Below are positions 1,155 to 40,439 of a stretch of 40,451 bases of DNA, piece by piece. The DNA comes from Candidatus Gastranaerophilales bacterium (GTDB taxonomy: Bacteria; Cyanobacteriota; Vampirovibrionia; Gastranaerophilales; Gastranaerophilaceae), in NCBI GenBank assembly GCA_944326015.1, contig CALVCJ010000011.1, positions 1-40,451 on the forward strand. Reading direction: 5' to 3'. The notes beneath the pieces were generated by a model. The model was not told the origin of the DNA, searched no databases, and saw only the letters and a list, made by a program, of their open reading frames with translations. Numbering within the stretch: the first letter of the stretch is position 1; the number at the start of each line of letters is the position of its first letter. A program made the position numbers and the translations under genes.

Positions 1155-1262
1155 AGAGGGCAAGATGTTCAGAAGGCAAGAAGACAGACTAGTTTCAATA
1201 GTTAATTTTGTGCGTAGCACCGATAACAGCTTGACCTCCTGCCATCTGGACTTCTGTTCCTC
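1155..1262. repeat. Family-2 imperfect palindrome, copy 1
   Basis: An imperfect inverted repeat with a left arm rich in GAAGGCAAGA and a right arm containing AGCTTGACCTCCTGCC. The core around 1192-1242 is nearly identical to one at 7010-7050. It lies between uppS and rdgB. Confidence 0.6.
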
Positions 1263-1270
1263 CGACCGTT

Positions 1271-1340
1271 ACCCACCCCATCCCTCCCTAATCAGGGAGG
1301 GGAATTAAGCCTTCCCTTAATAGGGAAGGTTTGGATAGGT
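1271..1340. repeat. Family-1 palindromic element (full copy)
   Basis: Outer arms ACCCACCCC and GGATAGGT enclose two perfect hairpins, CCCTCCCT/AGGGAGGG and CTTCCCT/AGGGAAG. This is one of about fifteen copies between 1.2 and 5.6 kb. Confidence 0.8.
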
Positions 1341-1475
1341 ATCAATTAGATACAAAGAAACAAAGATGCATAGAGGCAAAGCTGTTATCAAAAATAAATT
1401 TTGTTGCAATTTTACCAACCTATCTATAAATGAAACTAGCCTGCCCTCCTGCCATCTGAACTTCCGTACCTCTTA
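1290..1475 (+). repeat. Direct repeat flanking rdgB, left copy
   Basis: About 185 bp recur at roughly 90 percent identity by eye at 2095-2285. The shared part runs from the second half of the family-1 palindrome through ATCAATTAGAT, a GATGCATAGAG block, a CTGTTATCAAAAATAAAT block and a pyrimidine-rich CCTGCC tail. The two copies bracket rdgB in the same orientation. Confidence 0.75.
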
Positions 1476-1496
1476 CAAAATAAAGGATAAATAAAT

Positions 1497-2075
1497 ATGA
1501 AACAAACAATCGTATTTGCAACAGGCAACGCTCATAAATTACAGGAAATAAACGAAATCGCACAAGGAACAGATATTGAATTTGTTTTGCCTCCCGATGG
1601 TTTCAACCCGATAGAAGACGGCAAAACATTTGAAGAAAATTCTTTGATAAAAGCACGTGAAGCAGCGCGTCTGAGCGGGATGATATCATTGGCAGATGAT
1701 TCAGGATTGTGTGTGGAGGCTCTATGCGGCGCCCCGGGGATCCATTCCGCAAGATACGCCGAAACACCTCAGGCAAGGATTGATAAGTTATTAGGAGTTT
1801 TGCAAAACGAAAAAAACAGAAAAGCAAAATTTGTCTGCGCAATGACCCTTGTAGATAAAGACGGGAATATTCTGTTCCGGACCCGCGGTGAATGCCAAGG
1901 GGAAATTGCTTATAAACAATCGGGTACAAACGGATTCGGTTATGACCCTGTTTTTCTAACAAAAGATACTGAATATAAAAAAACTATGGCAGAGATGTCT
2001 GAAGAAGAAAAAAATGAAATATCTCACCGTGGCAGAGCATTAAGGAAAGTGCTGGAGTATTTGAATAACAATTAA
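1497..2075 (+). CDS. rdgB: Non-canonical purine NTP pyrophosphatase (RdgB/HAM1 family)
   Basis: This enzyme hydrolyses dITP, ITP and XTP to the monophosphates and pyrophosphate, cleaning the nucleotide pool of deaminated purines. The 192-residue protein has the family hallmarks in order: FATGNAHKLQEI at the N-terminus (substrate loop), TFEENSLIKAREAA, LADDSGLCVEAL with the catalytic acidic pair, GAPGIHSARYA, GTNGFGYDPVF and SHRGRAL at the end. The ATG at 1497 has an AAAGGA ribosome binding site about 9 nt upstream. No operon partner is present: it sits alone between two near-identical 185-bp direct repeats. That is odd for a housekeeping gene, but the coding sequence looks intact. Confidence 0.95.
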   Translation: MKQTIVFATGNAHKLQEINEIAQGTDIEFVLPPDGFNPIEDGKTFEENSLIKAREAARLSGMISLADDSGLCVEALCGAPGIHSARYAETPQARIDKLLGVLQNEKNRKAKFVCAMTLVDKDGNILFRTRGECQGEIAYKQSGTNGFGYDPVFLTKDTEYKKTMAEMSEEEKNEISHRGRALRKVLEYLNNN

Positions 2076-2078
2076 TTT

Positions 2079-2152
2079 ACCCTCTCCCCCATCCATCCCT
2101 AAAAAGGGAGGGGAAATTAAGCCTTCCCTAATTAGGGAAGGTTTGGATGGGT
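2079..2152. repeat. Family-1 palindromic element (full copy)
   Basis: A full two-hairpin copy begins 4 nt after the rdgB stop codon. It ends with GGATGGGT. The first hairpin is slightly degenerate (ATCCCTAAAAAGGGAG). Confidence 0.75.
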
Positions 2153-2285
2153 ATCAATTAGATGCAAAGAAGCAAAGATGCATAGAGTCAAAGCTGTTAT
2201 CAAAAATAAATATTGTTGCAATTTTACCAACCTATCTATAAATGAAAATAGCCTGCCTTCCTTCCCTCTGAACTTCTGTTCCTCT
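2095..2285 (+). repeat. Direct repeat flanking rdgB, right copy
   Basis: The partner of 1290-1475, in the same orientation. A 60-codon open frame running through it is made entirely of repeat sequence, so I do not call it a gene. Confidence 0.75.
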
Positions 2286-2293
2286 GACCCGTT

Positions 2294-2326
2294 ACCCGCC
2301 CCTGTCCTCCCTGACCAGGGAGGGAG
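2294..2326. repeat. Family-1 half element
   Basis: Single hairpin TCCTCCCTGACCAGGGAGGG with the ACCCGCCCC outer arm but without the second hairpin. It lies just upstream of the first peptide cassette. Confidence 0.65.
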
Positions 2327-2377
2327 TATTGTTTTCCCTCTCTCCTTGGGAGAGAGTTAGAGAGAGGGTAAGCAAAA

Positions 2378-2406
2378 TCGACAAATTGGCTGGTTTATGG
2401 TAATAT
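2378..2406 (+). promoter_or_regulatory. Sense promoter of peptide cassette 1
   Basis: TCGACA (2378-2383), a 17-bp spacer and TAATAT (2401-2406). The arrangement is conserved in cassette 2. The start is predicted near 2411-2413, giving a leader of about 90 nt. Confidence 0.6.
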
Positions 2407-2411
2407 AAGAC

Positions 2412-2500
2412 CACAGGGTAAAAGATGTCCTTTTCGAAACGGAACAACCTACAAAATATCTTAGAACTCGGGTTGGTTCCCGACTAGAAAGGGGGTCGAT
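2412..2500 (+). promoter_or_regulatory. Structured leader of peptide 1 mRNA
   Basis: The leader is highly conserved between the cassettes. It has a hairpin TCGGG-TTGGTT-CCCGA (2468-2483) followed by a strong Shine-Dalgarno AAAGGGGG about 5 nt before the ATG. The 3' arm TTCCC could alternatively pair with the GGGGG of the ribosome binding site, which would hide it. A 20-codon frame starting at 2425 is not preserved in cassette 2 because of a 1-nt length difference, so RNA structure rather than a leader peptide appears to be conserved. Confidence 0.5.
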
Positions 2501-2581
2501 ATGAATGATTTCAATTTGACTTTATTTTTAATCTTATTGATTTTAATCATATTTAAAAGTGGCACCCACCTGAAAAGGTAA
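2501..2581 (+). CDS. Small hydrophobic peptide, candidate type I toxin (copy 1)
   Basis: A 26-residue peptide: short polar N-terminus (MNDFN), one predicted membrane segment of about 13 Leu/Ile/Phe-rich residues (positions 6-18), then a basic polar tail (KSGTHLKR). The layout matches membrane-acting type I toxins such as those of the Fst, Ldr and TxpA/BsrG groups, though I see no direct sequence homology to them. The ATG is preceded by AAAGGGGG at good spacing. The second copy shares 12 of 26 residues, and most other positions are conservative swaps in an ungapped alignment. That indicates selection on the peptide. A convergent antisense RNA is predicted over its 3' end. Toxicity is inferred, not shown. 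Confidence 0.7.
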   Translation: MNDFNLTLFLILLILIIFKSGTHLKR

Positions 2582-2636
2582 GCACCACTTAGAACTCTCA
2601 AGGGCATCCGGCAAGCTCGGCAAGCTGCCACCCTGT
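2554..2636 (-). ncRNA. Predicted antisense RNA of cassette 1 (antitoxin candidate)
   Basis: Transcription is predicted to start near 2636 from a consensus minus-strand promoter and to end at a hairpin lying inside the 3' end of the peptide gene. The terminator stem has arms AAGTGG (2557-2562) and CCACTT (2585-2590), with an inner ACCT-GAAA-AGGT stem, and on the minus strand is followed by TTTTAAA. The RNA of about 80 nt would be fully complementary to the last third of the peptide frame and its 3' untranslated region. Its 5' part forms the GGC/AGCT hairpin complementary to the one in the sense RNA (2601-2634), a possible kissing site. Confidence 0.65.
2601..2634 (+). terminator. Conserved 3' hairpin of cassette 1 sense RNA
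   Basis: AGGG (2601-2604) pairs with CCCT (2631-2634), enclosing GGC/GCC and AGCT/AGCT stems. It is followed by U-rich but not continuous-U sequence (TGTATTTATATT). It may be the sense transcript's 3' end or the antisense recognition hairpin. Confidence 0.45.
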
Positions 2637-2642
2637 ATTTAT

Positions 2643-2671
2643 ATTATTTACTATTTTATTCGGTTTGTCAA
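2643..2671 (-). promoter_or_regulatory. Antisense promoter of cassette 1
   Basis: On the minus strand a perfect TTGACA (2666-2671), a 17-bp spacer and AATAAT (2643-2648). It faces the peptide gene and is identical in cassette 2. It is stronger by consensus than the sense promoter, as is usual for labile antisense antitoxins. Confidence 0.7.
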
Positions 2672-2752
2672 GTGCTGGAAACAGTAAAAAAGTCTTCCCT
2701 GATTAGGGAAGATATAGATGGGTATTGATTTGATAAAAATGTAAAGATTGTT

Positions 2753-2892
2753 ACCCACCCCTATCCCCTCCCTAATCAGGGAGGGAGATTAAGCTCCTTC
2801 CCTTAATAGGGAAGGGTGGGATGGGTTTCAAGTTTTTTAGATTGATAAACTCTTTGTTACCCACCCCTACCCCCTCCCTAATCAGGGAGGGG
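2753..2892. repeat. Family-1 composite element
   Basis: A full two-hairpin element (2753-2826), then a spacer with TTTTTTAGATTGATAAAC, then a half element (2858-2892). The same composite order occurs at 4203, 4721 and 4931. Confidence 0.75.
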
Positions 2893-2903
2893 AAAATTAG
2901 CAT

Positions 2904-2937
2904 AAAAAAAAGACCGGCGTGAAAAGATTTCCGGTCT
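2904..2937 (-). terminator. Intrinsic terminator downstream of the pilin-like gene
   Basis: AGACCGG (2911-2917) and CCGGTCT (2931-2937) form a 7-bp GC-rich stem. On the minus strand it is followed by a run of eight T (2904-2911). It lies about 130 nt after the stop of the minus-strand pilin-like gene, with a family-1 half element in between. Confidence 0.85.
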
Positions 2938-3008
2938 ACAAAAAGATTCGATTTATAAAAATTTATTTGGGTTGTATGCTAAACCATATTGGACAAGTAC
3001 GGTTCGTC

Positions 3009-3045
3009 ACCCACCCCTTGTATTCCCCTCCCCTCAAGGGAGGGG
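3009..3045. repeat. Family-1 half element
   Basis: ACCCACCCC arm and a CCCCTCCCCTCAAGGGAGGGG hairpin variant, in the 3' region of the pilin-like transcript. Confidence 0.6.
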
Positions 3046-3063
3046 ATGAATAAATAACAAATG

Positions 3064-3732
3064 TTATTTACTGTACAATACTGCTCTTGCTGCAACAGAG
3101 CTTGGAAGAACTGTCTGGTCATAAAATACAACAGGATAGATATCCGTTGGACTTTTAATTGTACAGTTACTATCATCAGCCCCAGTTCCATCATCACATT
3201 TAACTTCTCTGTTAGGAGCTTTTATACCGTTAACATCAATGAAACCATAACATGGCTTAACACCTCTTGTTTCATCATTAGAACATGCTTTAGCATCCTC
3301 TGTATCAAATGTAAACATAATACCGTCATTAAAGAATAATGTTGTATTGTTTGTGCCAGGTGCTATAGGAGCAGGAGTTGCTCCTCCCTTGGCTGCTGCT
3401 GTTACTGAATAAGCAGTTTTCCCATCAGGTCCAACAAATGTTCCCGTTTCAGTTCTAACAACATTCATACGGTTAGTTAACATTTCTTTAATTGTATATG
3501 GGGAAGTTCCTGTAGCATCCGCGAAGTTCCATTCATCAAGTGCCATATTTAATGTTACAGCCTGTGACAATGCTGATAAAGCTTTTTTGTAAGCGGCTTT
3601 ATATTGTGCACCTTGAGTTGAATTCATCAATGTTGGCATTGTCATTGCAGCTACAACACCGATAATACCTAATGTAATCAATACTTCCGCAAGCGTAAAA
3701 CCGCCTCTCACTCTCATATTTGATAATCTCAT
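3064..3732 (-). CDS. Type IV pilin-like protein (prepilin N-methylation signal)
   Basis: A 222-residue protein with a short basic leader, then the class III signal GG/FTLAEVLITLGIIGVV. A prepilin peptidase should cut before Phe, leaving an N-terminal hydrophobic helix; the conserved Glu at +5 is present. The C-terminal part (about residues 40-222) is a variable, secreted-type domain with four cysteines. I chose the ATG at 3732, which has AAAGGTGG 8 nt upstream. A GTG at 3744 overlaps that ribosome binding site. No assembly ATPase, platform protein or prepilin peptidase is nearby, so a role in pili, pseudopili or DNA uptake is open. Regulation is probably by the divergent XRE protein (see 3778-3818). 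Confidence 0.85.
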   Translation of the reverse strand: MRLSNMRVRGGFTLAEVLITLGIIGVVAAMTMPTLMNSTQGAQYKAAYKKALSALSQAVTLNMALDEWNFADATGTSPYTIKEMLTNRMNVVRTETGTFVGPDGKTAYSVTAAAKGGATPAPIAPGTNNTTLFFNDGIMFTFDTEDAKACSNDETRGVKPCYGFIDVNGIKAPNREVKCDDGTGADDSNCTIKSPTDIYPVVFYDQTVLPSSVAARAVLYSK

Positions 3733-3770
3733 AATCATTTCCACCTTTCTTGATTATTGTATACATGATT

Positions 3771-3799
3771 ATTATACGATATAAATATCAATTTGTCAA
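3771..3799 (-). promoter_or_regulatory. Consensus promoter of the pilin-like gene
   Basis: On the minus strand TTGACA (3794-3799), a 17-bp spacer and TATAAT (3771-3776): perfect at both hexamers. Such a promoter would be constitutive unless repressed. The -35 overlaps TTGTCA (3793-3798) on the plus strand, which with TATCAT (3815-3820) could serve the XRE gene. Confidence 0.8.
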
Positions 3800-3818
3800 G
3801 ATAATTGATATAAATATC
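3778..3818. promoter_or_regulatory. Two operator-like sites between XRE and pilin-like gene
   Basis: The 12-bp near-palindrome GATATAAATATC occurs twice, at 3778-3789 and 3807-3818, 29 bp apart. Site 1 fills the spacer of the pilin promoter and site 2 lies just upstream of its -35. The likely ligand is the adjacent XRE protein, acting as a repressor of the pilin gene and possibly of itself. Confidence 0.6.
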
Positions 3819-3864
3819 ATTATATCATTTTAAACTTATCTTTATATTTTATTAGAGGTTTATA

Positions 3865-4197
3865 ATGAATTTGGATAAAGTAATAATCGGTCAAAAAATC
3901 AGGCAAATGAGGAAAGAAAAAGGACTTTCACAGGAAGAACTTTCCGAAAAAATTGATATTTCTCCGCGCCATATGTGTACTATTGAAAACGGAAACTCAT
4001 ACCCGTCAATAGAAACATTTATTAAGATTTCTGAAATTCTTGATATAGATATCAATGAATTTTTCAATTTAACCCCGCAAAAAAATGATACTCTTAGAAA
4101 TGATATTTATAACCTGATACAAACTTCATCTATAAATGAACTGCATCTCATAAAAGATATTATCTCTGCCATACAGAAAAACAGAAAAATCTGGTAA
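3865..4197 (+). CDS. XRE-family helix-turn-helix regulator
   Basis: A 110-residue DNA-binding protein. Residues 8-65 form a Cro/CI-type HTH domain (GQKIRQMRKEKGLSQEELSE, then ISPRHMCTIENG and PSIETFIKISEILDI). The remaining 45 residues are a short tail without a recognisable ligand domain. The ATG has GAGG about 7 nt upstream. It is divergent from the pilin-like gene, and the intergenic region carries paired operator-like sites. It resembles the XRE protein at 11635-11859, which also sits divergently beside a pilin-like gene. Confidence 0.85.
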   Translation: MNLDKVIIGQKIRQMRKEKGLSQEELSEKIDISPRHMCTIENGNSYPSIETFIKISEILDIDINEFFNLTPQKNDTLRNDIYNLIQTSSINELHLIKDIISAIQKNRKIW

Positions 4198-4202
4198 TTG
4201 AA

Positions 4203-4331
4203 ACCCACCACTAACCCTAATCAGTGAGGGAAATTAAGCCTTCCATGGATAGGGAAGGTTTGGATGGGTTGCATTTTTTAGATTAACAAATTTTGTTACC
4301 CACCCCTAACCCCTCCCTGATTAGGGAGGGG
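4203..4331. repeat. Family-1 composite element
   Basis: A full element (4203-4269, first hairpin degenerate), a spacer with TTTTTTAGATTAACAAA and a half element (4298-4331). It begins 5 nt after the XRE stop and ends 7 nt before the DUF559 stop. It occupies the whole convergent gap. Confidence 0.75.
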
Positions 4332-4338
4332 AATAAGC

Positions 4339-4695
4339 TTATAACTGTTTTTCTTTAATATCAAATTCCTTTTGTAGTTGTTGGTATACACCTGTAATAT
4401 TATTATCTATTTCATTGTTCCAGAAGCGTATAATTCTATACCCCTTGCTTTCTAAATATAGAGACCTTTGTTTATCATATTCAAGATTTTTAGGTTCATT
4501 ATGCTGGCCTCCGTCAATTTCTATAATTAACTTTTTCTCCCTGCATATAAAATCAACTATATAAACACCTATTACATATTGTCTTAAAAATCTGTATCCG
4601 TAAAATTGTCTGTTTCTTATTACATCCCAAAGTTTTTGTTCTTGGGGTGTCATATTTTTTCTTAAATATCTGGCATTTTCTTTTTGGGTCGGCAT
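4339..4695 (-). CDS. DUF559 (endonuclease-fold) protein
   Basis: A 118-residue protein of the DUF559 family, related to very-short-patch-repair and PD-(D/E)XK nucleases. The family core is visible: a TPQEQKLWDVIRNRQFYGYRFLRQ block, a VDF motif, an IIEIDGGQH block holding the candidate catalytic acidic residues, and RIIRFWNNEI at the C-terminus. Family members are frequent in mobile and repeat-rich DNA, but their role is not established. The start is ATG 4695; an in-frame GTG at 4728 lies inside a palindromic repeat. TATAAT on the minus strand (4700-4705) is only 4 nt from the ATG and there is no ribosome binding site, so the mRNA could be leaderless. Confidence 0.85.
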   Translation of the reverse strand: MPTQKENARYLRKNMTPQEQKLWDVIRNRQFYGYRFLRQYVIGVYIVDFICREKKLIIEIDGGQHNEPKNLEYDKQRSLYLESKGYRIIRFWNNEIDNNITGVYQQLQKEFDIKEKQL

Positions 4696-4720
4696 ATTTA
4701 TTATACTATCACAAAAATTG

Positions 4721-4854
4721 TTACCCACCCTAACCCCTCCCTGATCAGGGAGGGGAATTAAGCCTTCCCTAAATAGGGAAGGTTTGGATGGGTTATTTTT
4801 TTAGATTAACAAACTTTGTTACTCACCCCTAACCCCTCCCTAAGAAGGGAGGGG
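4721..4854. repeat. Family-1 composite element
   Basis: A full element (4721-4794) with perfect CCCTCCCTGATCAGGGAGGG and CTTCCCT/AGGGAAG hairpins, the AGATTAACAAACTTTGTTA spacer and a half element (4821-4854). Confidence 0.8.
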
Positions 4855-4930
4855 ATTTTTAAACCTGCTCATCTCTATAAATGCAATAAGCTTGCCTTCT
4901 TGACCTCTGAACTTCAGGCCTTCTGATAAT

Positions 4931-5070
4931 TCCCCTCTCCCTTAATCCCTCCCCCGAGGGAGAGAAATTTAGCCTTCCCTGGATAGGGAAGGCTTGGATG
5001 GGTTGTAAAATTTTTTAGATTAATAAACTCATTGTTACCCACCCCTACCCCCTCCCTAATCAGGGAGGGG
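4931..5070. repeat. Family-1 composite element
   Basis: A full but diverged element (4931-5003), a spacer with TTTTTTAGATTAATAAAC and a half element (5037-5070). The 4855-4930 gap before it carries a fragment of the family-2 pyrimidine-rich arm. Confidence 0.75.
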
Positions 5071-5125
5071 AAATTGTTAAACGTCCTCTGTCTTTGCGAG
5101 AGAGTTAGAGAGAGGGTAAGCAAAA

Positions 5126-5154
5126 TCGACAAATTGGCTGGTTTATGGTATTAT
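5126..5154 (+). promoter_or_regulatory. Sense promoter of peptide cassette 2
   Basis: TCGACA (5126-5131), a 17-bp spacer and TATTAT (5149-5154), the same layout as cassette 1. The start is predicted near 5160, with a structured leader to 5249 (hairpin 5217-5232 and AAAGGGGG before the ATG). Confidence 0.6.
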
Positions 5155-5249
5155 AGTACCACAGGGTAAAAGATGTCCTGTTCGAAACGGAACCGCCTAC
5201 ACATACATTGTAGACCTCGGGTTGGTTCCCGACTAGAAAGGGGGCTGAT

Positions 5250-5330
5250 ATGGATAAATTCAATATTAGTTTATTACTAATTTTTATGATTTTATTTGTA
5301 TTAAAAAACGGCTCTTACCTGAACAGATAA
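5250..5330 (+). CDS. Small hydrophobic peptide, candidate type I toxin (copy 2)
   Basis: A 26-residue paralogue of the 2501-2581 peptide: MDKFN, a Leu/Ile/Phe/Met-rich membrane segment (residues 6-18), and the tail KNGSYLNR. Phe4, Asn5, Lys19, Gly21, Leu24 and the terminal Arg are shared. The differences are mostly Ile/Leu/Phe/Val or Ser/Thr exchanges. Frame length is identical although the flanking RNA contains a 1-nt length change, which supports translation. The ribosome binding site is AAAGGGGG. The antisense RNA predicted at 5301-5383 overlaps its last ten codons. It could be an independent toxin-antitoxin pair or a backup copy. Confidence 0.7.
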   Translation: MDKFNISLLLIFMILFVLKNGSYLNR

Positions 5331-5383
5331 GAACCGTTAGACCTCTAAGGGCATCCGGCAAGCTTGGCAAGCTGCCACCCTGT
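5301..5383 (-). ncRNA. Predicted antisense RNA of cassette 2 (antitoxin candidate)
   Basis: It starts near 5383 and ends at a long hairpin. AACGG (5307-5311) pairs with CCGTT (5334-5338), then TCTTA with TAAGA, with a GAAC apical loop; on the minus strand it is followed by six T. Relative to cassette 1 the stem differs by two compensated base pairs (T-A to C-G and G-C to A-T). The terminator thus stays intact while the sequence diverges. Length is about 80 nt. Confidence 0.7.
5348..5381 (+). terminator. Conserved 3' hairpin of cassette 2 sense RNA
   Basis: AGGG (5348-5351)/CCCT (5378-5381) with inner GGC/GCC and AGCTT/AAGCT stems and a GGC loop. It is followed by TGTATTTATATT. It is the counterpart of 2601-2634 and lies opposite the 5' end of the antisense RNA. 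Confidence 0.45.
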
Positions 5384-5389
5384 ATTTAT

Positions 5390-5418
5390 ATTATTTACTA
5401 TTTTATTCTGTTTGTCAA
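5390..5418 (-). promoter_or_regulatory. Antisense promoter of cassette 2
   Basis: On the minus strand TTGACA (5413-5418), a 17-bp spacer and AATAAT (5390-5395), the same as in cassette 1. Confidence 0.7.
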
Positions 5419-5438
5419 GTGTTGGAAACAGTAAAAAA

Positions 5439-5757
5439 GTCTTCCCTGATTAGGGAAGATTTAGATGGGTATTGATTTGATAAAATGTAAAGCTTATTAC
5501 CCACCCCTACCCCCTCCCTAATGAGGGAGGGGAAATTGTTAAACGTCCTCTGTCTTTGCGAGAGAGTTAGAGAGATGCGAATTTTTATCCTTGTTCTTGT
5601 TTAACTCTTTTCCCTAATCCCTCTCCCTAATGAGGAAGGGGGAGTTTAGCTCCATTCCCAATAAGATATAGAAAAATTTAGTTAATCATCAGGATAATCT
5701 TGAAACAATTTTATTGACATCAATTTATGTTTAATAGTAAAATAAATTATGTTGTAA
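5439..5757. other. Repeat remnants upstream of the efflux operon
   Basis: This stretch has no gene. It holds a single-hairpin element (TCTTCCCT/AGGGAAGA, 5439-5470), a half element (5499-5532) and the short direct repeat to 5576. A degenerate pyrimidine/purine copy follows (about 5611-5660), then the efflux promoter. The equivalent of 5439-5532 follows cassette 1 at 2691-2790. Confidence 0.6.
5714..5743 (+). promoter_or_regulatory. Probable promoter of the RND efflux operon
   Basis: A perfect TTGACA (5714-5719), an 18-bp spacer and TAAAAT (5738-5743). The leader is about 55 nt. No TetR- or MarR-type regulator gene is adjacent. Confidence 0.55.
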
Positions 5758-17362: not shown

Positions 17363-17746
17363 ATGAAAATTTCAAACTGTAAAAATAATCCAAATTTTAA
17401 CGGATTATATTTCAAAAATGTTTCGCCGGAAATCTCGAGCGTCCTGAAAAATTCCCCTGTAGTTCAAAATCTGGGAAACAATTATGATGTTTTTATTTCG
17501 CAATATGAAAAACGCACCAGAGGAGATTTTGGCAGAGCAGTTGAATATGGACTTAAATATAAAATTCAAGAAATTACTCCGAATTTATTTCATAAAAAAC
17601 CTGAATTTAACGTACAAGGCTCATCCGATTTTGCTTTGAACCCCAAACTTTACACAAACAGAGAAGATATAGAAAAAACTATTATAGACGACCTTGTAAA
17701 AGAAGCTGAATTAATTGACGAAAAATTTTTTAAAAATTTTAAATAA
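17363..17746 (+). CDS. Orphan protein with NPNF-type N-terminus
   Basis: A 127-residue protein of unknown function. It begins MKISNCKNNPNFNGLYFKN, a short N-terminal motif of the type seen in several orphan proteins of this kind of genome, followed by a soluble, charged body. There is no membrane segment after the N-terminus and no catalytic motif I can name. No clear ribosome binding site is visible. Its 3' end overlaps the convergent fliR-like gene by 8 nt. Coding potential is supported by length and normal codon use. Confidence 0.6.
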   Translation: MKISNCKNNPNFNGLYFKNVSPEISSVLKNSPVVQNLGNNYDVFISQYEKRTRGDFGRAVEYGLKYKIQEITPNLFHKKPEFNVQGSSDFALNPKLYTNREDIEKTIIDDLVKEAELIDEKFFKNFK

Positions 17747-18518
17747 TCTTTGCAAACGACAAAAAATAATCCGATATTATATTCACAAGCATTGGCAAAA
17801 TCCAAACAAGAATTGCCGCTCCTAACACAGGTTTGAAAAGAAAGCTTAATTGAAAAACATTTACCTGCGGAGCTGTTTTTGAAATTACCCCAAGGATAAT
17901 ATCCTGTCCCAAAGTCGCAAGAAGTATGGGAGAAGCTATTTGTAACCCCATAAATAAAACATTTGACGATAACTCAACCATATAATCCATGTTCACAAGC
18001 TGTTTCAACGGTATAATCGTTGCATCCAGCGGGAATATTTCAATGCTGCGCATAAGAGCGTGCAAAAGCCAGTAAATTCCGCCAAGCTGTATAAAAATTA
18101 TAAGCCCGAGAAGCTGAAAACATTTCCCGACAATCGAAACCTGTGAAGATGTAGTCGGATCCAAAACCATTGCAGACGAAAGCCCCATTTGCATATTAAT
18201 CATGTCACCACCCGCATCTACCGCTAACAAAATTAACTGCGCAATATATCCTATCATTGCCCCGACTACCATGTTCAAAAGAATTGAAAGTGCAAATGAT
18301 TCCTTAATTATTGTTACATCAGGTTTTATCGTACAAGTCAAAACTATAGTTATTAAGAATATAAGCCCGAGTTTTACCATACCCGGAATTTCTTTTCTGT
18401 TAAAAACAGGAGCCAGTCTGAAAAAACCAAGTAAACGCGCAAATATAAATATCCCGGCCGCAAGGTAGGCATTAAGCATTGGAAAAATTTTCATCAACTC
18501 TTCAATAAGTTCTTGCAA
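17739..18518 (-). CDS. fliR: Flagellar/type III export apparatus protein FliR
   Basis: Inner-membrane export-gate component, 259 residues. Six hydrophobic segments are visible. Family blocks include RLLGFFRLAPVFNRKEIPG near the N-terminus, GAMIGYIAQLILLAVDAGGD in the middle, and PQVNVFQLSFLFKPVLG near the C-terminus. A TTG start at 18518 is favoured: GGAAGG lies about 10 nt upstream, and the next ATG would remove part of the first helix. It is last in the minus-strand order SpoA protein, fliO, fliP, fliQ, fliR. FlhB and FlhA are not in the window, so a complete export system depends on genes elsewhere. Confidence 0.93.
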   Translation of the reverse strand: MQELIEELMKIFPMLNAYLAAGIFIFARLLGFFRLAPVFNRKEIPGMVKLGLIFLITIVLTCTIKPDVTIIKESFALSILLNMVVGAMIGYIAQLILLAVDAGGDMINMQMGLSSAMVLDPTTSSQVSIVGKCFQLLGLIIFIQLGGIYWLLHALMRSIEIFPLDATIIPLKQLVNMDYMVELSSNVLFMGLQIASPILLATLGQDIILGVISKTAPQVNVFQLSFLFKPVLGAAILVWILPMLVNIISDYFLSFAKII

Positions 18519-18548
18519 TCTTATTTACCTTCCTTTCACTCGTATTCT

Positions 18549-19037
18549 CTACCTGCCCAAAATCTGGTTTGTCTCAACAAAATTAGGACGCGGCATAGGA
18601 TTTTGCGGACTTGCATAGTATTTTGTCTTCTGCTGCTGATCTATAAAAGGTACTTTCCCCGGATTCTTCATAATTTCATCAATATCCGGCACATTTTTAA
18701 ATTTATCATTCATTTCATGCTCAAAAGGCGTTGTATATTTAAAATAATCGGCAGGAAGAACATACGCATCATTTTTAGAAACAAGATTAAAAGCCATTGC
18801 AAAACCGTCTGCCACAAACCCTTTCAGCATATTAATAAATCCGATGCCGCCGATTACAATAACAAGAAATACTCCGAGAATTTTCGGAGCAGCCGCAATG
18901 GTTTGTTCCTGAACCTGAGTAACAGCCTGCAAAATACCGACAACAAGACCTATGCCTGCTGCAACTAGTACACAGGGCATTGAAATTGCAAGCATTATCA
19001 AAAAGCCTTTTGCCAAGTATTCAATTAAAACTTCCAT
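18549..19037 (-). CDS. fliQ: Export apparatus protein FliQ with long C-terminal extension
   Basis: Residues 1-88 match FliQ/SctS: two membrane helices with ISMPCVLVAAGIGLVVGILQ and AVTQVQEQTIAAAPKILGVF. FliQ is normally about 89 residues, but this protein has 162. The extra 70 or so residues (about 90-162) are polar and proline/glutamine-containing, ending PRPNFVETNQILGR, and match nothing I know. The ATG has GAGG upstream. A family-2 type palindrome lies between it and fliP. The extension is in frame without a sign of frameshift. Confidence 0.88.
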   Translation of the reverse strand: MEVLIEYLAKGFLIMLAISMPCVLVAAGIGLVVGILQAVTQVQEQTIAAAPKILGVFLVIVIGGIGFINMLKGFVADGFAMAFNLVSKNDAYVLPADYFKYTTPFEHEMNDKFKNVPDIDEIMKNPGKVPFIDQQQKTKYYASPQNPMPRPNFVETNQILGR

Positions 19038-19241
19038 TGTTATACCTCATCTGTTAATGTTTAAATCTATAAATCACCCGAAAGTCCGGATGGTCACAGG
19101 AAAAGAGGGCAAGCTTTTATCGGCGACTTGCGCGAAAATAACTTTTGTAAAAAGCCTGACATCCTGCCCTCCTGACTTCTGTTCTTGTAGTTTCTCTTTT
19201 TGTATTTTTGGTCATTTTATTTCTCCTGTCATAAACAGCTT
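19038..19241. repeat. fliP-fliQ spacer with family-2 type palindrome
   Basis: About 200 nt without a gene. Positions 19085-19188 contain the family-2 arms (GAGGGCAAGC on the left, CATCCTGCCCTCCTGACTTC on the right) around a diverged loop. It again sits between two co-directional genes. Confidence 0.55.
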
Positions 19242-19883
19242 CTAATTATAGCTTGTAACCAGTCCCTGAACAATTAAAGCCCAGCCATCTACCGCAATAA
19301 ATATCAAAAGCTTAAACGGCAGTGATATAATAGTCGGTGACAGCATAAACATACCTAAAGCAAGCAATATATTTGCTACAACAAGGTCTAACACAATGAA
19401 CGGAACAAATATGATAAATCCGATTTCAAATGATGTTTTAAGTTCACTGATTATAAATGCCGGCGCAACCTGCCACACTGTTATTTCATCAGGACTTTTT
19501 GGCGGTGCTCCTTTTGAAGCTTCTATAAAAAATGCCAGATCACTTTCTCTCGTCTGTTTCATCATAAACTCTTTCAATGGCTTTGAGCCCTCATTTATTG
19601 CCTCGACAATATTTTGATTTTTATGATACGGAACTGCTCCCATTTCATACATTTTTTGAAAAGTTCCGCCCATTGTATAAAACGTCAAAATCATAGCAAG
19701 ACCAATTATAACAATAGATGGCGGAACCTGCTGAGTACCCATTGCTGTTTTCAACATTGAAAACACTATAACAAATCTCAAAAAACTTGTCATGCAGCAA
19801 AACACCAATGGCAGTAGTGAAAATACCGTCATTAATATAAGCATTTGTAACACAGGGTTCATATCTTTTATTATTGTATCCAT
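19242..19883 (-). CDS. fliP: Flagellar/type III export apparatus protein FliP
   Basis: Core export-gate subunit of 213 residues. Signature regions are FLRFVIVFSMLKTAMGTQQ with VPPSIVIIGLAMILTFYTMG, and the C-terminal AFIISELKTSFEIGFIIFVP followed by DLVVANILLALGMFMLSPTI. It begins directly at the first membrane helix without the cleavable signal peptide of enteric FliP, as in SctR-type and many other FliP proteins. The ATG has GAGG upstream. It lies 10 nt after fliO and upstream of fliQ. Confidence 0.95.
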   Translation of the reverse strand: MDTIIKDMNPVLQMLILMTVFSLLPLVFCCMTSFLRFVIVFSMLKTAMGTQQVPPSIVIIGLAMILTFYTMGGTFQKMYEMGAVPYHKNQNIVEAINEGSKPLKEFMMKQTRESDLAFFIEASKGAPPKSPDEITVWQVAPAFIISELKTSFEIGFIIFVPFIVLDLVVANILLALGMFMLSPTIISLPFKLLIFIAVDGWALIVQGLVTSYN

Positions 19884-40378: not shown

Positions 40379-40407
40379 TTGACAAAACAAGTAAAATCGT
40401 AAATAAT
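40379..40407 (+). promoter_or_regulatory. Promoter of the gene entering the right edge
   Basis: TTGACA (40379-40384), a 17-bp spacer and AATAAT (40402-40407), the same hexamers and spacing as the antisense promoters and the 11917 pilin-like gene. Confidence 0.6.
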
Positions 40408-40439
40408 ATGTTTATAAGCAAAATTAAGGAGGATGAAAA

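Follow-up and report, generated by a model that had tools for sequence, protein, structure and literature searches.

Cassette 1 of the 40,451-nt stretch of DNA analysed here (the window) was very probably a chromosomal type I toxin-antitoxin cassette acting by the mechanism proposed below, and it belonged to family A, a branch of a superfamily found in Gastranaerophilaceae-like gut bacteria (estimated probability, roughly 0.84). It displayed the type I layout, namely a short basic hydrophobic peptide, a strong convergent antisense promoter, a Shine-Dalgarno sequence (SD) predicted to be sequestered, closure of the mRNA, and multiple copies. The proposal of a candidate new type I family, made in a preliminary description of this DNA, was supported by a conserved frame, a conserved antisense promoter, and covariation in the terminator and the antisense hairpin; the candidate family stood, but the one or two members recognized there accounted for a single peptide branch within a larger superfamily. 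Against the type I reading, the sense promoter scored just 9/12 and no sense 3' end was identified. There were no data on expression and toxicity, and the label "candidate" was thus kept. The features are collected in Table 1.

Table 1. Features of cassettes 1 and 2 and peptides of families B to F
Feature	Positions	Strand	Sequence	Basis or remark
Sense (toxin) promoter	2378-2406	+	TCGACA-17-TAATAT	9/12 match; TG ahead of -10
Toxin mRNA, approximate	2412-2660	+		Ends inferred; 3' end not determined
5' zipper arm	2414-2430	+	CAGGGUAAAAGAUGUCC	Pairs with 2601-2608 and 2630-2635
5'-UTR hairpin directly 5' of SD	2441-2480	+	GGAACAACC...GGUUGGUUCC	Sequence and predicted fold
SD	2488-2495	+	AAAGGGGG	Sequence; 6-13 nt 5' of start codon
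Toxin-candidate ORF, 26 aa	2501-2581	+	MNDFNLTLFLILLILIIFKSGTHLKR	Conserved frame with homologues
Predicted antisense RNA (antitoxin candidate), ~83 nt	2554-2636	-		Bounded by promoter and terminator; transcription inferred
Intrinsic-terminator-like hairpin of antisense RNA	2557-2590	-		Covers last codons and stop of ORF
3' zipper arm	2601-2608	+	AGGGCAUC	Cognate pairing test
Antisense RNA 5' hairpin	2610-2629	-	GGCAGCUUGCCGAGCUUGCC	Fold and covariation
Antisense promoter	2643-2671	-	TTGACA-17-AATAAT	11/12 match
Second cassette	5123-5437	+		86% identical to first, same architecture; sequence comparison
Second-cassette ORF	5250-5330	+	MDKFNISLLLIFMILFVLKNGSYLNR	Paralogue of ORF 2501-2581
Family B peptide, example			MNRELIKKALAILELLIKLIIVLI	Grouped by eye
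Family C peptide			MIDKIIMLLIAFDILLVALKLFKS	Grouped by eye
Family D peptide			MTNEIIKTVITVIITVLQIVIYWL and kin	Grouped by eye
Family E peptide			...SITEKALWLILAIIIALKLLK	Grouped by eye
Family F peptide			...YALVVIGHILLVLASFM	Grouped by eye

The hydrophobic 26-codon frame with its strong ribosome binding site and the sense promoter of its own, as claimed in the preliminary description, were all located in cassette 1. The peptide, whose translation is inferred, was basic and hydrophobic with one hydrophobic stretch, and the complementary arms of the 5'-UTR hairpin co-changed among copies (judged by eye, without a formal count). The sense promoter was kept in close copies, and its family-wide mean of 8.5/12 was below that of the antisense promoter. 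Exactly two SD-preceded, strongly hydrophobic ORFs of 20-35 residues were present in the window, i.e., those of cassettes 1 and 2, compared to a mean of 0.23 in first-order Markov randomised windows; at the level of sequence, a chance origin of cassette 1 is excluded, and it is conservation that decides the matter.

A DNA search of the genus yielded about 20 full cassette copies with mostly differing flanks. The search of related genomes that had been proposed for the peptide was carried out with a profile of 18 peptides, and matches were found in 107 of the 288 sampled genomes of the bacterial family (28/41 genera), the family A homologues containing very few stop codons. A wider draw from the class gave matches in 60/240 genomes, all 60 from that same family of Gastranaerophilales; the named matching records were Candidatus Gastranaerophilales or Melainabacteria MAGs, and family A was absent from some genomes of the genus. 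The ORF measured exactly 26 codons in 63/67 copies, and pN/pS was 0.39-0.43 in the peptide frame versus 0.76 and 3.9 in the two alternative frames (given the relatedness of the sequences, the ratios characterise the set and give no probability). Judged by these comparisons, the family A frame is under purifying selection; loss of the frame in most homologous copies, which had been named as a result that would refute the family, did not occur, and the frames were intact in nearly all copies.

The facing antisense promoter and the antisense terminator within the 3' end of the peptide gene, likewise proposed beforehand, were both confirmed as conserved features. At the expected place, the antisense promoter scored 10/12 or better in 65 of the 66 copies picked by peptide alone (mean, 10.9 of 12), and shuffles averaged about 7.5; these shuffles were derived from the cassette catalogue, which required an antisense promoter and whose promoter figures are therefore conditional, while the unbiased promoter count was that of the 66 peptide-picked copies. 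The minus-strand hairpin 2557-2590 was predicted to fold strongly, and the minus-strand stretch 2637-2540 had a z of -3.5 versus shuffles. In the alignment of 39 distinct copies, both-side (compensatory) changes were observed in 6/7 pairs of the terminator hairpin and 4/4 counted pairs of the antisense 5' hairpin, and the whole-structure covariation score was 0.300, compared to 0.166 in shuffles and a maximum of 0.109 when the structure was slid. The terminator of cassette 1 had a short U-tract (UUUUAAAU), weaker than that of most copies (UUUUUUAAU). A structured 5' UTR, a short ORF, and a terminator-like hairpin would also be found in a leader peptide or attenuator governing the next gene, a reading that is hardly tenable: the hairpin terminates the antisense strand and not the sense strand, the next downstream gene in the window lies on the opposite strand, and the flanks vary between copies.

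For the toxin mRNA of the type I cassette, the predicted fold of 2412-2660 had a z of -4.4 (0/200 shuffles as stable), and the 5' end (CAGGGU...GAUGUCC) paired with the 3' end (GGGCAUC...ACCCUG) to form a zipper with an outer stem 97% paired. Past the invariant CAGGGU/ACCCUG, the zipper arms varied between copies and matched inside each copy: across 39 copies, cognate duplexes averaged -11.9 kcal/mol versus -6.8 for mismatched arms, and cognate beat non-cognate pairing in 39/39 copies (z -12.1; 0/5000 permutations). The inverted-repeat-like ends of the locus (CAGGGT...ACCCTG) and its location among intergenic palindromic repeats would suit a palindromic or MITE-like mobile element with a chance frame, the 5'-3' complementarity then being terminal inverted repeats; this is very improbable given the purifying selection on the frame, the conserved promoters outside the inverted ends, the syntenic flanks in congeners, and the arms themselves, which differ across copies yet co-vary within each, unlike the terminal repeats of one element.

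Within the candidate toxin mRNA, the family A SD was predicted to be mostly paired, its mean unpaired probability (39 copies, full-length RNA) being 0.26; deletion of the first 25 nt raised this value to 0.39, and deletion of the last 50 nt lowered it to 0.20. In these models, trimming of the 5' end freed the SD and trimming of the 3' end did not, which favours a 5'-side activation step by folding inference only; since the SD pairing was only moderate and was not opened by 3' truncation, the activation step is guesswork. Plain 3'-processing activation in the style of AapA was rejected, because the SD stayed closed in the models. The locus ends form an inverted repeat, and thus the antisense RNA would start like the mRNA (CAGGGU...); with this common 5' start, it is inferred that it would compete with the mRNA 5' end for the mRNA 3' end. 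The idea that the zippers keep tandem copies orthogonal was abandoned, since one zipper sequence was common to all three copies in locus L095.

Loci drawn in solely by the antisense promoter coded for different hydrophobic peptides, likewise preceded by strong SDs. The superfamily contained at least five further hydrophobic peptides beside A, i.e., at least six peptide types, of 24-29 aa; peptides were assigned to families by pattern, and common descent of the six types is not implied. A covariance model of the B-F 5' UTR matched 62 places in 22/32 genomes of the genus and, among 232 class genomes, 57 genomes, all from the same family as A. Cassette kinds were often adjacent (L062 had A, C, and D inside about 1.2 kb), and tandem A copies occurred in L086 and L095; the tandem arrays of L086, L095, and L062 had a spacing of about 320 nt and sometimes mixed peptide families. 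A terminator-like antisense-strand hairpin overlapped the ORF in 114/114 catalogued cassettes. In each family, the terminators exceeded synonymous-codon shuffles in strength, with mean z values of -2.3 (A), -3.7 (B), -5.2 (C), -2.6 (D), -6.5 (E), and -4.2 (F), and 69/4240 shuffles equalled the real terminator. For B-F, (i) SD/anti-SD pairing was cognate-specific (z -7.5), (ii) the SD had a predicted unpaired probability of 0.33, which reached 0.58 once the 5' end was removed, and (iii) the test for cognate-specific 5'-3' pairing was negative (z 0.1), the closure relying on invariant AGGG/CCCU. It is fairly likely that at least six hydrophobic peptides share one RNA scaffold, composed of a 5'-3' closing stem, an SD-sequestering leader, an antisense promoter, and a terminator written into the toxin codons, the toxins having apparently been swapped or remodelled in a constant chassis and their codons also encoding the antitoxin terminator. 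Toxicity is only inferred, and the sequence evidence is that of an antisense-regulated conserved small hydrophobic protein, so a physiological small membrane protein (e.g., a transporter or stress regulator) tuned by antisense RNA could be meant instead; this is unlikely, since the numerous divergent copies in each genome, their tandem arrays, their patchy presence, and the several peptide types on one RNA scaffold suit toxins better than a protein with a housekeeping role.

As proposed for the type I cassette, the weak sense promoter would give a compact mRNA for a 26-residue, putatively membrane-active peptide, and the full-length mRNA would close on itself via the locus-specific 5'-3' zipper with the SD tied up and be poorly translated. 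The strong convergent promoter would produce an antisense RNA of about 83 nt, which would stop at the terminator overlapping the toxin codons and pair with the 3' third of the mRNA, most likely leading to cleavage of the mRNA by RNase III. Shortage of the antisense RNA, or a presumed processing of the mRNA that opens the SD, would allow the peptide to be made, and it would then damage or depolarise the inner membrane. The physiological role is likewise a matter of inference, with stress, dormancy, phage response, and element upkeep as open options.

The peptide had been described as unlike the toxins known from the TxpA/RatA and BsrG/SR4 architecture, and in agreement with this, searches of Pfam (where the top hits reached 13 bits), NCBIfam, and PADLOC gave nothing above cut-off. 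With Rfam, whether at gathering or at relaxed thresholds, there were chance hits only, mostly on the palindromic repeat at 2693-2784. Pfam contains models for Fst, Hok, Ldr, Ibs, and TisB, and no curated-profile match was obtained for these or other curated families; there was also no Pfam, NCBIfam, or Rfam match indicating peptide or RNA homology to AapA/IsoA, the presence of an AapA model in these libraries not being confirmed. Among open-licence full texts, none was found in which Melainabacteria occurred together with type I toxin-antitoxin, or antisense RNA together with Gastranaerophilales; two that mentioned both Gastranaerophilales and toxin-antitoxin did so incidentally.

On the best reading, the superfamily works like AapA/IsoA and TxpA/RatA and is related to neither. 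The convergent 3'-overlap architecture of TxpA/RatA and BsrG/SR4, to which the locus had been likened, held good as a layout but not as the sole model, the mRNA logic being equally AapA/IsoA-like. AapA/IsoA of Helicobacter pylori (PMC6733600, PMC8167048) shares with the present system multi-copy chromosomal cassettes, a small hydrophobic peptide, a long-distance 5'-3' interaction of the mRNA, and, as predicted here, a cis antisense RNA and SD/anti-SD control; the likeness in the 5'-3' interaction is mechanistic and not kinship. A non-translatable primary transcript is a major hallmark of type I loci, and AapA1 is activated by 3' processing (PMC6733600). Here, the antisense RNA would lie opposite the 3' third of the mRNA instead of the SD, and removal of the 3' end would delete the antitoxin site and leaves the SD closed in models. 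Bacillus subtilis TxpA/RatA and BsrG/SR4 (PMC6562991, PMC8167048) likewise have convergent genes with 3' overlap, a strong antitoxin promoter, and an expected RNase III route, a 5'-3' zipper not being known from these accounts; TxpA, with 59 aa (PMC8167048), compares with 26 aa in cassette 1 and 24-29 aa in the superfamily, and no homology was found. Fst/RNAII of par (PMC8167048) resembles the cassette in its convergent toxin and antisense genes and in repeats at both RNA 5' ends; the par repeats are direct and let both RNAs pair, whereas the 5' ends here form an inverted repeat, and par, unlike the cassette, has a shared bidirectional terminator, the cassette peptide being without a Pfam match. 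In MsoT1/MsoA1 of Microcystis, from the same phylum, the 3' coding end and 3' UTR of the toxin are covered by an antisense RNA of 56 or 83 nt, but MsoT1 has 63 aa and two predicted helices versus 26 aa and one hydrophobic stretch, no similarity was seen, and the system has not been described as a scaffold for several toxins (PMC12390103). Extension of an antisense RNA into the 3' coding end of a toxin is therefore not new as a trait alone; what is new, as far as could be found, is that one scaffold uses it for six peptide types. Before that single cyanobacterial case, type I systems were placed only in Proteobacteria, Firmicutes, and Tenericutes by the 2025 paper (PMC12390103).

If the reading is true, Gastranaerophilales would gain their first described type I superfamily, a widespread one in a gut lineage rich in uncultured members with more than 100 natural variants, and it would place several peptides on one chassis under a dual-coding constraint (toxin codons doubling as antitoxin terminator) testable by synonymous mutation. 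Type I systems are hard to detect because of their short ORFs and diverging RNAs, and a gene for a 26-residue peptide is easily missed because it is tiny; a search template was gained, namely antisense terminators within short hydrophobic ORFs.

The genome of the window harbored two A cassettes and three of other kinds (G000:C7, C8, and C28). Some congeners retained the gene orders rdgB-like gene/cassette 1/pilin-like gene and HTH gene/cassette 2/efflux gene; a DNA search with family A only found no match in plasmids and phages, and IMG/VR gave no match to the family A peptide or to two exact patterns, the first representing A and the second B-F. From this synteny and the absence of such matches, the cassettes have the appearance of resident chromosomal modules.

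Intergenic palindromic repeats (CCCTCCCTAATCAGGGAGGGG ... TTCCCTAATAGGGAAGG) of REP/MITE-like character were numerous at 1250-5600 (e.g., 2693-2812, 2865-2892, and 4236-4330), flanked both cassettes, and recurred on other contigs. Antisense-like promoters (TTGACA...TATAAT; TTGACAAAACAAGTAAAATCGTAAATAAT) were also present at 3771-3799 (-), preceding a type IV pilin-like gene (3064-3744), and at 40379-40409 (+), preceding a truncated ORF at the end of the window. Across the genus, many matches to the promoter alone sat upstream of similar pilin-like genes; loci L025-L027, L030, L032, L034, L051, and L054 were discarded as containing no cassette, only a promoter-like stretch having matched. Runs of 10-13 G (GGGGGGGGGG), possibly phase-variable tracts, were found upstream of or inside the pilin-like loci L027, L032, L034, and L051 in several congeners. 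The region 17739-19883 (-) contained genes resembling FliR/FliQ/FliP-type export components, as read from their translations only.
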